Source: Mesaphorura yosii
Lineage: Eukaryota; Arthropoda; Collembola; Poduromorpha; Tullbergiidae
DNA: 28,739 nucleotides
Assembly: GCA_009869945.1 (NCBI GenBank)
Contig: WIXG01000655.1
Coordinates: 1 to 28,739, forward strand
Direction: 5' to 3'
Shown: piece by piece, positions 13,205-24,781 of the stretch
How positions within the stretch are numbered: position 1 is the first letter of the stretch
How the letters are laid out: every line of letters starts with the position of its first letter
Made by a program: the position numbers and the translations under genes
The notes under the pieces: model-generated
Told to the model about the DNA's origin: nothing
What the model saw: only the letters and a program-made list of their open reading frames with translations
The model's database searches: none

Positions 13205-15225
13205 CTATTCGGTGATATTATGTCCCACTACCGCTGATGAGACTTCAATGCTCCACCTCGTCCCTGCGCCCACCAACAACAGAAACATGGCCAAATCGTC
13301 ATTCTGGTTGGCTTCGGCAGTCGGCCACAATCCGTTCCCATCGAATACGTTGACGCTCATCTTGACGCCCCGCAGCAGGTACTCTACAATATCATAATGC
13401 CCTGCCCTCACAGCTAAGTATAAAACCGTCGTCTCGTACACTGGACAGGCAGTCTCAGGATTGGCGAGCTTGGATTCAATTAGGAACTTGACTTGATCCA
13501 ACTGGCCTTGTGTACATGCGAATGCCAACTGGTCTTGGAACTCCGGTTCCGTGTTTCCATACTCGTGTTTTGCCACGAGGTCTGCTACCGATGATCCGTC
13601 GCCAGCAAGAATAGTCTCGTCTCCACCATTTGCCCGTCCGAGTCCTTCATGGCATCACTATCCCTTTCCATGTTCAGTCCAACTTCGTCATACTTCTGAA
13701 TGAGGAACTTGAGACACCCAATTCGTTGCCTCCCCGCCGCCAGCACAAGTGGAGGCTCATCCGCACTCAGCCGCCTCCAATCAGCTCCGTACATGATGAG
13801 TCGTCATAGCCGCCTCGTGATTCTTTTCAATCGCTAAACAAACCGCAGTTTTGCCGCTGCCATCCACCACGTTCAAATCAGCACTCTTTGCGTGTAGGAA
13901 ATGCAGAAATTCGGCGTGCGATGTTAAGCTAAATTTCTTTTAAGAACAGCGTGAGCGGTGTGTCCCCTCCCACGTCGGTACGGTTGACATGCATGTCTAG
14001 CCCATGCCTCGACACGAGCCACAGGGCCTTGGCCAGCTGCCCGTATGCGGCAAGGTAGTGGAGCGCCGAACGGCCGCTCCAATGCGCGTGGATCGGATCC
14101 TTGGTCAATGAGAAATTGTAGCTTTTGGATACCACAAAATATGCACGCGTGCAACAACAAAGTTTCGCCACTCTCTTCGTTAAAAGCGCGATGCATGTCA
14201 ATTGGGTATTTGGTCAACAGGAACTCCAAGCACGCAATGTTGTCCGATAGGAGCGCTGCGTTCAAGTACGTACTCGGCCAATTACAACGCTCGCGAGAGG
14301 GTTGGCTCCAATCGACATCGGGCCCGACCCTTGACATGAGATCTTGGAGTATGTTTATGAGTCCATGCTTGATTGCGAGGTAGATGCAATCCTCTCCGTT
14401 GTCATTGCATATACGTGAGTCAAATATGCTTACTTGTTATGATATGTGTGAGCTTGCTGACACAATGCGGCTTTCCAACACGCACAGCAAGATGCAATAA
14501 GTTCCCTATGTTGCGGTGGTTGCCCGGCGGTTTATTTTGGACAAAGTCAAGTTTCCGAAGCCACTGAGTCGTCGGTCCCTGTGCCCATTTTCTCACGCAG
14601 AAGGTATTCCAGGAGAAGATGGGGTGGAGCGCCGGCTCCATTCTCCAGAAGGAAGGCGACTATGTCCCAAGCTCCCCTAATGATAAAATCCGACATATCC
14701 ACGACCTTTTGTGCATGTGAATCGTGTAGGCATTCAAAACTTGCACGCACCAGCAAATGCTTCAGAACCGGGAACGTTTTTGGCTGGTATGCACTACATT
14801 CTGTGATCAGCGGGAAGAAATTCGGGTTTTGGAAAGAGGATGGCAGTGCGTCGACTAATTTCTGAACACTTGGCACGATTTCTTCTTTGCTGCCGCGGAG
14901 AAGCGCCTTCAACAACCCTGGCACGACAACCCGCCCCAGAAAGTGCTCAGATTGTATAAGTCACGCCTCATAGAATTTTGAGTTTAGCGCTGTGTCAATC
15001 AACTGCATCATCGCGTTCGAGGGCCCAATGATGTCACGGAATTCTCTCTGCAACAGGTAGGCGAGGGTTGCCTTCTGAGTGGATCGTGCAGCGTCGAGCA
15101 GGAGGTCGAGCCTCGGCTCCATATCTGTCGTGGCCACCTGATTGATAAAGTACTCCACCATGAACAAATTGCCAGCCTCCATCGCCCGACGGATTGGTGT
15201 ACAATCTTCGCAGTCGGTTGCGCCC
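13205..15225 (-). pseudogene. Ankyrin-repeat protein gene, decayed
   Basis: Ankyrin-like units run along the minus strand from about 15225 to 13205, but in changing frames. Recognisable pieces are CTPIRRAMEAGNLFMVEYF (15.2 kb), KALLRGS...DIVAFLLENGAG, NIGNLLHLAVRVG, GETLLLHACIFCGIQKLQFL, SGRSALHYLAAYGQLAKAL, GSGKTAVCLAIEKNHEAA, PPLVLAAGRQRIGCLKFL and TTVLYLAVRAGHYDIVEYLL. A TGA at 14961-14963 interrupts one frame, and the sense of the repeats jumps frame near 14585, 14100, 13940, 13795 and 13620 without plausible introns; near 14425 a short intron is possible. The upstream end stops where copia sequence begins, so the N-terminus is missing. Intact neighbouring genes argue against general sequencing error. 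Ankyrin repeats mediate protein binding; no enzymatic domain is visible. Confidence 0.75.
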
Positions 15226-16115
15226 GTTTGCCTCTGGGTAATACGGCGCGCTTGTCTGGTGTATTAACCCTTTCTTAGTGACGAACTCACCGCCATTATC
15301 AGACTTGAACGTCTTGACCATGTTACCAGTTTGTTTTTCGATTAGCTTGACAAACGCTTTGACGCATGCGGCAGCCTCGTTCTTTTTCTTCAAGAAATAC
15401 ACTGTTCTGAAGGACGAGCAGTCCTCCTTTAGTAGCAGGAAGTACTGCGCTCCACCCAGTGAAGCAACATGGATTTTTCCTGACAAATCTGCATGCAGTT
15501 TTTCCCCTGGCTTGGTGAGCTGCTTCTCTTTCATTACTGGGAACGGCTTTCTAGCCTCTTTACCGTAGTGGCAGGCATCACAGGAGAACTCTTCCTTTCC
15601 GTCGATGCCACTGACTGCTTCTTTCCGCACAGTTTCCAAAATGTACTTCAAGTTGATATGCGCCAGCCTCTCATGCCAGAGTCTTGACGTACTCCCTCCC
15701 TTGCCGAAGAGGATCCATGCTTTCATTGGACGAAAATTCATTATGCACATCTGATCCTTGAAGTATGCTTGTGGGCCAAGTACCTCACCATCTTCATAGA
15801 ACGTTGTTCTGGTTCTGCCTAATAATTTTTAAGCCTTTCTGCGCCATTACGCTTTCCGAAAACAAATTCTCGTCTCCTGGAATTTACAAGACATTACTGA
15901 TGGTGCAGGTTTTTCATTCATTTTGAAGCCAGGCTTCTAGTCTCACAGTCCCTGATCCAGTGGCCTTGATATTCTTCTTGTTGGTGAGTGTGATGATCGT
16001 TGGCTTCTGAAATTCCTTGAAGTCCTCCATCCACTCGTTCAAGCCAGTGATGTGCTGTGAAGTGCCAGAGTCGCTATACCAAATGCACTTGATGATTGCT
16101 CCGTCTGCTGTGCTT
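15226..16115 (-). mobile_element. Degenerate Ty1/copia retrotransposon pol fragment
   Basis: On the minus strand the order is protease, GAG-pre-integrase, integrase core, as in Ty1/copia elements. Protease: WYSDSGTSQHITG near 16090-16050, then a NVL-stop-IPGDENLFSES segment. GAG-pre-integrase: LWHERLAHINLKYI with CDACHYGKEARKPFP (zinc-binding HxxxxH-CxxC pattern). Integrase: HADLSGK and SDNGGEF supply two of the catalytic acidic residues, and PYYPEANG is where homology stops at about 15225, before the catalytic Glu. Stops and frameshifts occur near 15880 and 15800. Reverse transcriptase, RNase H and gag were not found, and no terminal repeats were seen, so this is a truncated dead copy. Confidence 0.85.
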
Positions 16116-16344: not shown

Positions 16345-17921
16345 TTATCCTTGGTCGCTGGTTGCTTTCGAATTCGAAAGTTTGACGAGGGCCGCCAGCG
16401 CCGACTGAAATCCCGCGTTGTAGTCCGTCGCTACTTCATTCTGCACGTAGTCGTCCCTTCTGTCGTCATAGTTGTCATTGAGGTCCGGTCCTCCAACAAG
16501 GGCGCCATAAAGAATTTGAGGGTTGGAGTCCGGACTCTCGTAGTCATCATCACCGCAAGGCGCCGGGCGATCGGGGCACGAACTGGCTCGGTGATGCGGT
16601 CTCTGTGGCGGATTGACTCCGTACCCAACGACGAAACTCCGACCGGAGTCTCCAAGAATGTAGCCGATTTGCTCCCGGGCAAATTCCCGGTACACTTCGG
16701 GAGTGATGCCCGCATCGGCGGCTCGCAGGCAGACGAAGACTGAATTGCTCGTGGTGCGCAAGGAGCCCCACTCCGACAGGAAAGCCAGGCGTTTGGGCGT
16801 CCGTGGAGCATCGTACACAACAAAGTCGCAATACGCCTTGGCCGCATCGATGTAAATTTGCTCTCCTGTCAGCTGGGCCATGAGAACCTGAAGCCCGGGA
16901 AATTTGAACTGCCAATCGAAGCGGTCTGTACGGTTAGAGAGCCCAAATTCGTTCCAGTGGCTCCGAAAGTCGTTCAGATACTTAACGTCGGATGTTGCAC
17001 GAAACAGCCAAGCAGCAGCCCAACCCAATTCATCTCCGTAGTGCCGGGAGCTGATAAAATAGGGCAATCCTGTTTTGATTTCCATAATGTGTCGTGTATT
17101 GTGGCATTAACTTACACGTAGAAATCAACGACGTCCGTGATGGCCTCATGATAGAATCCGCGATAAGTGTTGGCAAAATTGTACAGCTCCTTCGCATGAA
17201 ACAGACATTCCTCCGCGTACGCCGAATTCCGGTCTTTGAAGATGAGATACCCAGTCGCAAGCGCCGCGGCCGTTTCGGCAGAGAGCTCCGAGCCAGGCCG
17301 CTCTGCCGTGATTTTGTACGCGGGTCTAGCCAGCTCGGATGGCCAGTCTTCAGGCCGGCCCCAGAAGGAATGGTCGATGTGACCGGAGCCAACTTGCCCG
17401 TAGAGTAAGTTTGGCTCCGGGTGCGCCTTCATAAAGTAATCGAGTGACCAGCGCAGTGCATTCAGCCCGTTCTCGTACTCTCCCGCGAGTTCGTAGCCTT
17501 CCCTGTAGTCTAGCAGCCCCCAGCCGATGATGGTCGAGAAGCCGGCCATCGGAAACCCGAATTTGACGTGATCACCGGCTGAAGAGGCAAACGAATAAGA
17601 AAAGAAAATAAGAAGCGTATTCTTTGCCCACTAAAGTATTCAGTTACCATCGAAGTACCCTCCGCGCAGGTCCACGCTGCCATCCGCGTCGTGTATGAAT
17701 GAATTGCCTCGCCATGGAATTCGGTTGTCCCCAGGCAGTCGACCGCAGCGCTGGGCCTCGTAAAACAGGAGCGAGAGTCCAAGCACTTCGCCATAGTCGT
17801 AGGCGTTGGGCTTCGGTGGCGTCGTTAGCGGATCCATAAATCCGTTGGTGCATGCCAAGCTAAGGCAGAGGCCCAGACCAAAAAATTGCCGTGCCTGCAT
17901 GATCACCGAGCTGAATTTCAT
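16345..17921 (-). CDS. Secreted GH9 endo-beta-1,4-glucanase (480 aa)
   Basis: Exons on the minus strand are 17921-17648, 17578-17116 and 17050-16345 (phases 1 and 2), total 480 aa. A hydrophobic N-terminus (FFGLGLCLSLACTNGF) is a likely signal peptide. The GH9 core is complete: SLLFYEAQRCGRLP, GGYFDAGDHVKF with Asp91 and Asp94, YGDELGWAAAWLFRAT, SFVVGYGVNPPQRPHHRASS, and the C-terminal DDRRDDYVQNEVATDYNAGF with the general acid Glu451. Family knowledge: GH9 enzymes cleave internal beta-1,4 links of cellulose, and animal copies occur in termites, cockroaches, crustaceans, molluscs and springtails, usually secreted in the gut. There is no dockerin or carbohydrate-binding module. For intron 2 I chose donor gt|gtaagt and acceptor ttatcag|ctccc (65 bp), which restores DFYVSRHYGDEL; the nearer AG would leave a 30-base intron. 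All catalytic residues are present. Confidence 0.95.
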
Positions 17922-22491: not shown

Positions 22492-24708
22492 ATGGCAATG
22501 TCCATGTCTACTAAATTTGACAACTTGGTTGGTAAGTTTCTTTACCGTTGACGGTAATGTCGCAATCTGTGAAAAAAACGTTTCTTTCCCGTGATCCGCA
22601 TGATTGATAAATTCTACCTGTTCCTGGTTCTAATGTTAGAAAATGCCACGAACGAGAAAAATACAAATGACCAATGGGAGCTTATTATGAAGATTTGTGA
22701 CCTGGCTGCTCGGTCAATGGAAAATGCAGAAAATTGTCTTAAAGCAATTATCAGGAGACTGGGGCATCAGGACACACATGTTAAGCAGCAGGCGCTTACG
22801 GTACTGAACCAAAGTTTGTTATTCAACGCTGGCTTTTTCTAAAAATTAATTCGCTCCTGTAGTTGCTGGATTCGTGTGTAAGTAACTGTGGTCTCGTCTT
22901 TCGCTTGGAGATCGCCACGCCGTTCTTCGAGGAGGAATTTTTCAAGATTCTTCGACGCAGTGATAAGACCGTCCGAGACAAGCTATTTCGTTGCGTGGAG
23001 AGTTGGGCTTCATCGTATGAGCTCAAAAGTGAACCTCGTCTTTTACCCGTGCAAAAGTTGTACCATAAGCTGAAGTATCCTGGAGTAAAGACTTCATTCG
23101 AGACGTACGACGGGCATACGGATCAACCGGCCGTGTTTAACTCACAGGTCGAATCCGGAAATACTAGAATGGACTCGAATGACAGCAAGAAAGCAGCAGA
23201 ACTGGATGATTCTGACACGGACCTTGAGAAAGGTTATACAGCTTGGTCGGGATAATAAATGTCTGACAATTATTAATTATTGCCGCACGGCTCACAGTTC
23301 TTATCCGTATTTACAGCAATTAAATTATCGATGGAGGAATACCGGCGGAATCAGCCATTATTTACAACCGCAAATAGAACAGGAGACCATTCACCAGAAA
23401 ATACTGACCATTCTTCAGAGAATGGGAAGGTCAACGGGCTGAGCATGGATTCACAGCGAGGAGTCATTCAAGATAAACACGTGGGGATCTTCTGGGATAT
23501 TGAGAACGTCTCAGTACCAAGGAGGAAGTCAGTCAGCTACATAATTGCTCATCTTAGAAAGACATTCATTAAACGCCACAACCATCGTGAATTCGAGTTC
23601 ATGGTAGCTTGCGATGTCACCCGACTTTCGGACGTTATACGAAAAGATATCAACTTTGCAGGTTAGTAATGAATTGCTTGGTCTACTTTTAGGACGTTCG
23701 CACGAAAGGAACAATTCTGAGAACAAATTGGAATGTGAAGATACCAGGAACTTAACCTAACCTAACCATTTTAGGTGGAGTGAATCTAGTTCACGTAGAA
23801 ACTGGCAAGAATGCAGCTGACGCTAAATTGTTCGAAAATATCAAGAAATTTGTGGACGCTCACTGTAAGCTTAAGTTTTGTAAAATTATTCTTGACACAA
23901 ACGGATTATAAATTTTTTATTTTATTGTCCAGCACCAAATGCAGCTGTTGTGCTTATCTCCGGAGATAGTGACTTCGTGAATGACCTGCGAGCTTGCCAG
24001 ATGAGATTCCGGTCCCACATTACTTTGGTACACCCAACACAGTGTAAACCACAATTTGTGATTGGTTGGGATGAGACCTGCAAATTTGATGAGTTCTGCT
24101 CAATGGTTCCGGACAGGGACGCCACAAACAAGAATGGGTCACCGTCAGCAACTCAGAACATGGTTGCAGCTGCGGGCGGCTCTGCACATTACGAAGAACC
24201 AGCTCGGGCCGTTCCCAACCCGAGCCTGGGCCCAGTCGTTGTCGCACCAAGCACACCTAAAACACAAAAAAGGAAGAACAAGGCACCAAGCCATTCTAAA
24301 GTTATGGACATGTCTAATGTATCCTCTCGGGACAAAGTTCCAGCAGCGGCACCAGACGTCAGCGGATTGAATGTAACAACTCCTGCAAATGAGAAGATTG
24401 CAGCTGTAAACGGTCCCTCGTCCAAGTTGATTCTTAACGTAATGGGCCTGCCTGGCAAAATGGGTGAAGTGGAGTTGGCTAATATTTTGCAAACTGCTTT
24501 GGTCCAGGCTGGTGCTGCTGCAAAGGTCAAAATGATTAAAAATGGCCAGGCGTTTATCAGTTGCAAGTCACAGGAAAATGGAAACAAAGCAATCGAAGCG
24601 CTTGAAGGCAACAATAAAGTATTCGTGGGAAAATCTCTTCGCGTTTCGTATGCGAGGAAGATGCCCCTCGAGTCGGGTTCTCCAGCCACTCCAGCGTTTA
24701 AAATATAA
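22492..24708 (+). CDS. VHS-UIM-NYN-RRM fusion protein: STAM-like ubiquitin-binding module joined to a MARF1-like endonuclease (593 aa)
   Basis: Exons 22492-22531, 22640-22800, 22863-23232, 23317-23661, 23775-23864 and 23933-24708 (phases 1, 0, 1, 1, 1) give 593 aa. Residues 10-150 form a VHS domain like STAM: VENATNEKN, WELIMKICD, ENCLKAIIRRLGH, LLDSCVSNCGLVF. At 184-201, SDTDLEKAIKLSMEEYRR is a ubiquitin-interacting motif. An acidic linker leads to a NYN (PIN-like) nuclease resembling MARF1: VGIFWDIEN (Asp251), AADAKLF (Asp321), ISGDSDF (Asp347, Asp349), so catalytic acids are present, then a linker rich in Pro, Ala and Lys and one RRM (about 500-580). The LOTUS repeats of MARF1 are absent and there is no SH3 as in STAM. 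Half the UIM and the NYN start share one open exon, which argues against two adjacent genes. Intron 3 uses a weaker donor (g|gttata). Inferred role: cleavage of RNA at ubiquitin-marked sites or endosomes. Confidence 0.85.
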
Positions 24709-24718
24709 ATAATGCGGT

Positions 24719-24777
24719 TTTACAGCTCACATAATTTTTATTAAGTGGCTCTTAATAAAAATTATGTGATCTGTAAA
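24719..24777 (+). other. 27-bp near-perfect hairpin in the 3' untranslated region
   Basis: Left arm 24719-24745 and right arm 24751-24777 are reverse complements with one mismatch, around a five-base loop (tggct). It begins 11 bases after the stop of the VHS-NYN gene. Both strands contain AATAAA inside or at the edge of the arms (24754-24759 and 24776-24781 on plus), so it overlaps the polyadenylation region. Confidence 0.8.
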
Positions 24778-24781
24778 TAAA
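24776..24781 (+). terminator. Polyadenylation signal AATAAA
   Basis: Canonical hexamer 68 bases after the stop of the VHS-NYN gene, directly at the foot of the hairpin. A second copy lies inside the right arm at 24754-24759. Confidence 0.6.

Follow-up and report, generated by a model that had tools for sequence, protein, structure and literature searches.

A predicted springtail gene joining the VHS-UIM part of STAM to a NYN-RRM module: a candidate ubiquitin-steered endoribonuclease

Gene model and predicted domains

The window, meaning the whole 28,739-nt stretch of Mesaphorura yosii DNA that was analysed (contig C655), contains no N, and the genome searched for relatives comprised 93 Mb in 1127 contigs. 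A gene for a protein of 593 aa is predicted on the forward strand at 22492-24708. The first-pass annotation had proposed six exons in consistent phase, and the same six were recovered when the gene was rebuilt from its splice sites, giving a CDS of 1782 nt with no internal stops and five introns (108, 62, 84, 113 and 68 nt), all GT...AG. At the level of gene prediction, this confirms VHS-UIM, NYN and RRM as parts of a single gene.

Exon 1 (22492..22531) carries the start codon and the first 13 codons of a STAM-like part, and ends in phase 1 as does STAM exon 1. Exon 2 (22640..22800, 161 nt) encodes the first half of the VHS domain, including W26, and is equal in length and phases to exon 2 of the STAM gene of the same genome (C130). 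Exon 3 (22863..23232) covers the second VHS half, a linker and the first half of the UIM, and ends in phase 1 within DLxKA|I like STAM exon 3. The UIM, DLEKAIKLSMEEY (23220..23342), is interrupted by the 84-nt intron at 23233-23316. Exon 4 (23317..23661) supplies the other UIM half, a linker and the first half of the NYN domain, and includes the fusion point, somewhere from about residue 204 to 245. Exon 5 (23775..23864) continues the NYN domain with D321, and exon 6 (23933..24708) encodes the NYN end with SGDSDF (D347, D349), a basic linker, the RRM (24424..24663, limits approximate) and the stop codon. Two AATAAA signals (24754 and 24776, together 24754..24781) lie 3' of the stop on the same strand. 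A 27-nt inverted repeat (24719-24777, 96% complementary, 5-nt loop) directly follows the stop and overlaps both signals; no further copy of it was found in the genome. Elsewhere in the window there is a copia-like gag-pre-integrase/integrase piece at 15037-15828 and, nearby, a piece of a glycosyl hydrolase family 9 (cellulase-type) gene at 16348-17106.

The VHS domain (residues 5-140; Pfam 103.8 bits, E 9.5e-30) and the NYN domain (residues 246-360; 45.4 bits, E 1.5e-11) were both recognised by Pfam. A PDB sequence search with the first 142 residues returned human STAM1 (3ldz, 5e-28) and STAM2 as best matches, before TOM1 and HRS, while residues 245-396 were closest to the NYN domain of MARF1 (6fdl, 5e-27), which bears out the earlier description of these parts as STAM-like and MARF1-type. 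A sub-threshold DUF7923 match lies over the NYN end. The Pfam scan of the protein returned no LOTUS and no SH3 match, and KH, CUE and SMR domains are absent among the four families matched with E up to 1. The UIM of the first-pass annotation agrees with that of STAM in position, splice site and core residues, but its Pfam score (PF02809, 12.7 bits) is under the cut-off of 21; the UIM of the genome's own STAM reaches just 16.5 bits.

The single RRM that had been proposed is likewise not detected by Pfam in the window protein, and the case for it comes from its paralogues and from a modelled fold. The region aligned to it narrowly exceeds the RRM_1 cut-off of 20.7 in the paralogous genes on C1081 (20.9) and C354 (22.2), and a profile built from four paralogous RRM segments matches many RRMs, including 2diu (2.7e-8), the RRM of KIAA0430 (MARF1). 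A single-sequence model of the region has the order beta-alpha-beta-beta-alpha-beta (mean pLDDT 67). In the fold search, most of the top ten ranks are RRM entries by title, lower ranks include other ferredoxin-like folds and no match has an E below 0.001, so that this modelled fold supports the profile result and serves as backing for it only.

Origin of the two halves

The VHS-domain search of the genome gave four clear contigs (C65, C66, C130 and C655) and one weak (C457, E 0.2). C130 carries, by gene model, a complete STAM of 569 aa with VHS, UIM and SH3. Its residues 4-209 align to residues 3-204 of the window protein with 44% identity (E 9e-50), while beyond STAM residue 209 there is no significant alignment. 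In STAM the exons end at codons 14.33, 68.0 and 195.33, and in the window gene at 13.33, 67.0 and 190.33, with phases 1, 0 and 1 in both. The third of these shared introns splits the UIM (DLAKA|IELS in STAM, DLEKA|IKLS in the window gene), in agreement with the earlier statement that this motif is completed by a splice. The rest of the window was searched for the SH3 and later exons of STAM with no success; apart from the two VHS exons, the sole match spans 13 residues at 17088 (E 0.63).

The STAM likeness continues past the third intron. The first 12 residues of window exon 4 score 25 (BLOSUM62) against STAM exon 4, a value attained by no other of the 125,339 open 12-mers taken from the two strands of the window and of eight further loci, the locus of STAM itself (L026) being left out. 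Exon 4 therefore begins as STAM exon 4 and finishes as a NYN exon, and is chimeric. Since the fusion point lies within an exon, the gene model does not depend on linking neighbours over an intron, and the idea that two neighbouring genes had been linked was rejected. Among the sequence comparisons, the 12-mer result is the strongest reply to that worry, and the claim that the join is no accident of gene proximity stands.

Relatives of the enzyme half were found on several contigs. C1081 was modelled as a 628-aa NYN-linker-RRM gene (L023:1942-3967), and C354 as a gene for 468 aa that has NYN and RRM together with sub-threshold CCCH-like fingers (L022:5052-6697); both NYN introns are in phase 1 in these two genes and in the window gene, where they flank exon 5. 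C951 (L024:3335-5184) has a NYN fragment near the contig end that is 66-70% like C1081. This fragment comes directly after a 456-aa ORF that is transposase-like by eye and has no Pfam match. C527 is a degenerate copy in which SGDQGF replaces SGDxDF, and its ORF has no Pfam match. C120 shows NYN pieces together with OST-HTH and MARF1_LOTUS matches, which identifies it as the MARF1 orthologue, and the window fusion was rejected as a candidate for that role.

The window NYN domain is 55% identical to that of C1081, 57% to C354, 33% to the MARF1 of the same genome (from pieces joined by eye) and 37% to human MARF1. C527, having no NYN start, was omitted from the comparison, as was the C951 fragment from the first of two trees; the order inside the NYN-RRM group is poorly resolved in both (supports 0.73, 0.79 and 0.87). 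Among the genes compared, those nearest to the enzyme half are not MARF1 but a NYN-RRM group of their own within this genome. Scans of viral contigs with exon 6 and of prokaryote contigs with exon 4 turned up no relative, as expected of an animal gene. The proteins of C1081 and C354, the two paralogues modelled in full, end in CPIQ and CSIQ, which resemble the CaaX motif, while the window protein ends in AFKI. The CaaX-like tails suggest a lipid anchor, so that the paralogues may be prenylated, membrane-tethered RNases.

Constraint, key residues and proposed function

Both halves show the pattern of long-conserved coding sequence. Identity at codon positions 1, 2 and 3 is 0.64, 0.77 and 0.35 between the VHS domain and that of the genome's own STAM (140 codons, 54% amino acid identity), 0.68, 0.77 and 0.36 between the NYN domain and C1081 (151 codons), 0.67, 0.74 and 0.36 for NYN against C354 (151 codons), and 0.59, 0.65 and 0.32 for the RRM against C1081 (71 codons), with a random expectation of 0.25-0.29. 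Third positions thus come close to random although the protein is preserved, which argues that the sequences are old and selected. Estimates by NG86 (Biopython) gave dN of 0.34-0.56 and a dS that is not finite, fitting saturation. Constraint measured in this way applies to each half by itself and does not alone date the fusion.

Trp26 and LIM28-30 of the window protein are identical to STAM2, and the key VHS residues among them are presumably Trp26 and Leu/Met30. The UIM core also retains its Ala and Ser, both of which matter, and 48 residues separate the VHS end from the UIM, compared with 52 in STAM. One tryptophan and one leucine are named as key for VHS-ubiquitin binding in a paper that cites the VHS-ubiquitin structure (PMC11507603). 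According to a review, VHS-UIM of STAM2 binds K63-diubiquitin cooperatively and specifically, with the VHS on the proximal and the UIM on the distal unit (PMC4276913). What the window gene retains of STAM is its ubiquitin-chain reader, and by analogy with STAM2 we infer that the VHS and UIM of the window protein would jointly bind such chains with a preference for K63 linkage.

For the nuclease, the acidic residues D251, D321, D347 and D349 were found at the positions given by the first-pass annotation, which had taken all four as catalytic. The endoribonuclease activity of human MARF1 NYN has been shown, its acidic patch consists of Asp358, 426, 427 and 452, and activity is strongly reduced in the Asp426/427 double mutant (PMC6294520). 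Window D251, D321 and D347 correspond to D358, D426 and D452, so that three of the four patch residues are accounted for; the equivalent of Asp427 is Ala322 (Glu in C1081 and C354), and Asp349 is Asn in both human MARF1 and the genome's own. RNase activity is judged likely but not certain, because the human double mutant lost most activity and one of its two positions is alanine here.

Gene structure, the homology of the parts, the origin of both halves and long-term constraint on each half can be read from these sequence comparisons. A probable interpretation is that the fusion of STAM VHS-UIM with NYN-RRM is an endoribonuclease steered by ubiquitin chains, probably K63-linked. The 5' region of STAM (VHS and UIM, encoded by exons 1-3 and the beginning of exon 4) would have been copied and joined, within an exon, to the beginning of a local NYN-RRM gene belonging to a family related to MARF1. 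One mRNA would span exons 3-4, and the encoded endoribonuclease would read ubiquitin chains with its amino end. The NYN domain would cut single-stranded RNA that the RRM helps to hold, and a ubiquitin mark on ribosomes, RNPs or viral or transposon complexes would select the target.

The same parts could also have drifted away from their original roles: the fusion would be real, with the VHS-UIM serving as another protein-binding module, or the enzyme would be dead and the protein an RNA-binding regulator. The window VHS pairs with the genome's own STAM rather than with human STAM1/2 in a tree of four sequences (support 1.000), and its branch is long (0.72, against 0.016 for that STAM). Such fast evolution could reflect an altered ligand, and both the sub-threshold UIM and the alanine at the Asp427 equivalent fit the same account. 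Against it, the VHS retains Trp26, the UIM core its Ala and Ser and the NYN the D...D...SGDxD set, and the NYN domain on C85 of the same genome, which Pfam recognises, also has D then A together with SGDRD (by eye). We consider drift of this kind unlikely.

A further account holds that two products are never joined, one being a short STAM-like protein with the VHS that stops within intron 3 and the other a NYN-RRM protein starting at M234. Reading through intron 3 gives GYTAWSG and a stop at 23255, with an AATAAA at 23254. The internal ATG (23445..23447, forward strand) has A at -3 and G at +4 and lies nearly where the C1081 protein is modelled to start; it is a possible old or alternative start of the window gene, and from it a NYN-RRM protein with no ubiquitin reader could be made. 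The VHS part of the query had no match at C1081 or C354, which also fits separate products, and C1081 has just 1.9 kb upstream of its modelled start before the contig end, so upstream exons may be missing there. However, intron 3 is 84 nt long, like its neighbours (62-113 nt), so that a gene end plus a promoter would hardly fit, and exon 4 opens in frame with the remainder of the UIM, just where the STAM intron also falls. An AATAAA also occurs at 24613 within the RRM-coding part, so the hexamer taken by itself is weak evidence. Separate products are quite improbable. An assembly or prediction artefact is very improbable: the gene is on a single contig of a draft assembly and the junction was found just once in the genome, but the window has no N, the fusion is in frame and within an exon, and both halves have diverged from all other copies found in the genome, so that they are not wrongly joined fragments of STAM or any listed paralogue. 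A genome search for further copies of the promoter DNA also found none.

If the fusion acts as a ubiquitin-steered endoribonuclease, the leading targets would be ribosomes or RNPs that carry ubiquitin, or foreign RNA, and the data favour none among these. Endosomal membranes had also been put forward as a site. STAM binds HRS via its C-terminal core, and with the SH3 and everything after residue 209 missing, recruitment to endosomes via ESCRT-0 is not favoured.

Comparison with known systems

The window protein shares with STAM (signal transducing adaptor molecule, ESCRT-0) the VHS and, at a sub-threshold score, the UIM, their order, their near-equal spacing and three intron positions, and differs from it in having a NYN RNase domain and an RRM in place of the SH3 and all sequence matching STAM after residue 209. 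With MARF1 it shares a NYN domain followed by an RRM whose profile matches 2diu, and three of the four acidic patch residues; it differs in having no LOTUS match, one RRM, another N-terminus and a NYN domain with 33% identity to that of the genome's own MARF1. MARF1 also interacts, by its C-terminal part, with EDC4 and decapping.

Ubiquitin readers are found with RNases in other proteins. N4BP1 and KHNYN carry KH domains, not an RRM, and the nuclease domain of Cue2/NONU-1 is SMR. As described in one paper, which places them in the PRORP family, N4BP1 and KHNYN are NYN proteins with ubiquitin/NEDD8-binding domains, CoCUN or CUBAN (PMC7226360). Like the window protein, they thus combine a NYN enzyme and such a reader in one chain; the N4BP1 binding domain is C-terminal, however, and VHS-UIM is another kind of reader. 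According to a second paper, NONU-1 without its CUE domains loses its function in no-go decay, with the authors' caveat of a possible expression effect (PMC9870110). The logic of ubiquitin-binding domains and an endonuclease in one chain is the same, with binding and nuclease domains that are not those of the window protein.

The first-pass annotation knew of no described protein with this domain order. The exact order of VHS and NYN was indeed not found in print in a narrow literature search (relatives in other animals may exist, and these may already be annotated); the combination of a NYN RNase with a ubiquitin/NEDD8 reader is already known from the N4BP1/KHNYN paper (PMC7226360), and it is the STAM-made version that was not found. 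Beside the CUE-SMR proteins and N4BP1/KHNYN, the window fusion would be a third combination of ubiquitin reading and RNA cleavage in one chain, drawn from an endosomal sorting protein. If so, evolution would have arrived at the ubiquitin-reader-nuclease design repeatedly, and the gene would be a small natural system for testing chain type, reader and nuclease one by one. A more specific and tentative proposal, on balance doubtful, is that an address label was swapped: the two-part K63-chain reader of STAM would have replaced the CaaX-like tail of the paralogues, giving a ubiquitin-guided endoribonuclease by a new and independent route beside those of Cue2/NONU-1 and N4BP1/KHNYN.

A search of the genome for SMR-type no-go-decay endonucleases gave two matches, both below cut-off, one on C14 that is interrupted by stops and one on C938 that overlaps an NRPS-like ORF. 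The latter is a 1450-aa open frame (L043:526-4878) with AMP-binding, PP-binding and thioesterase domains, and may be a gained gene or a contaminant. RNase_Zc3h12a-type loci above the cut-off occur in the genome on C8, C522, C662 and C98.
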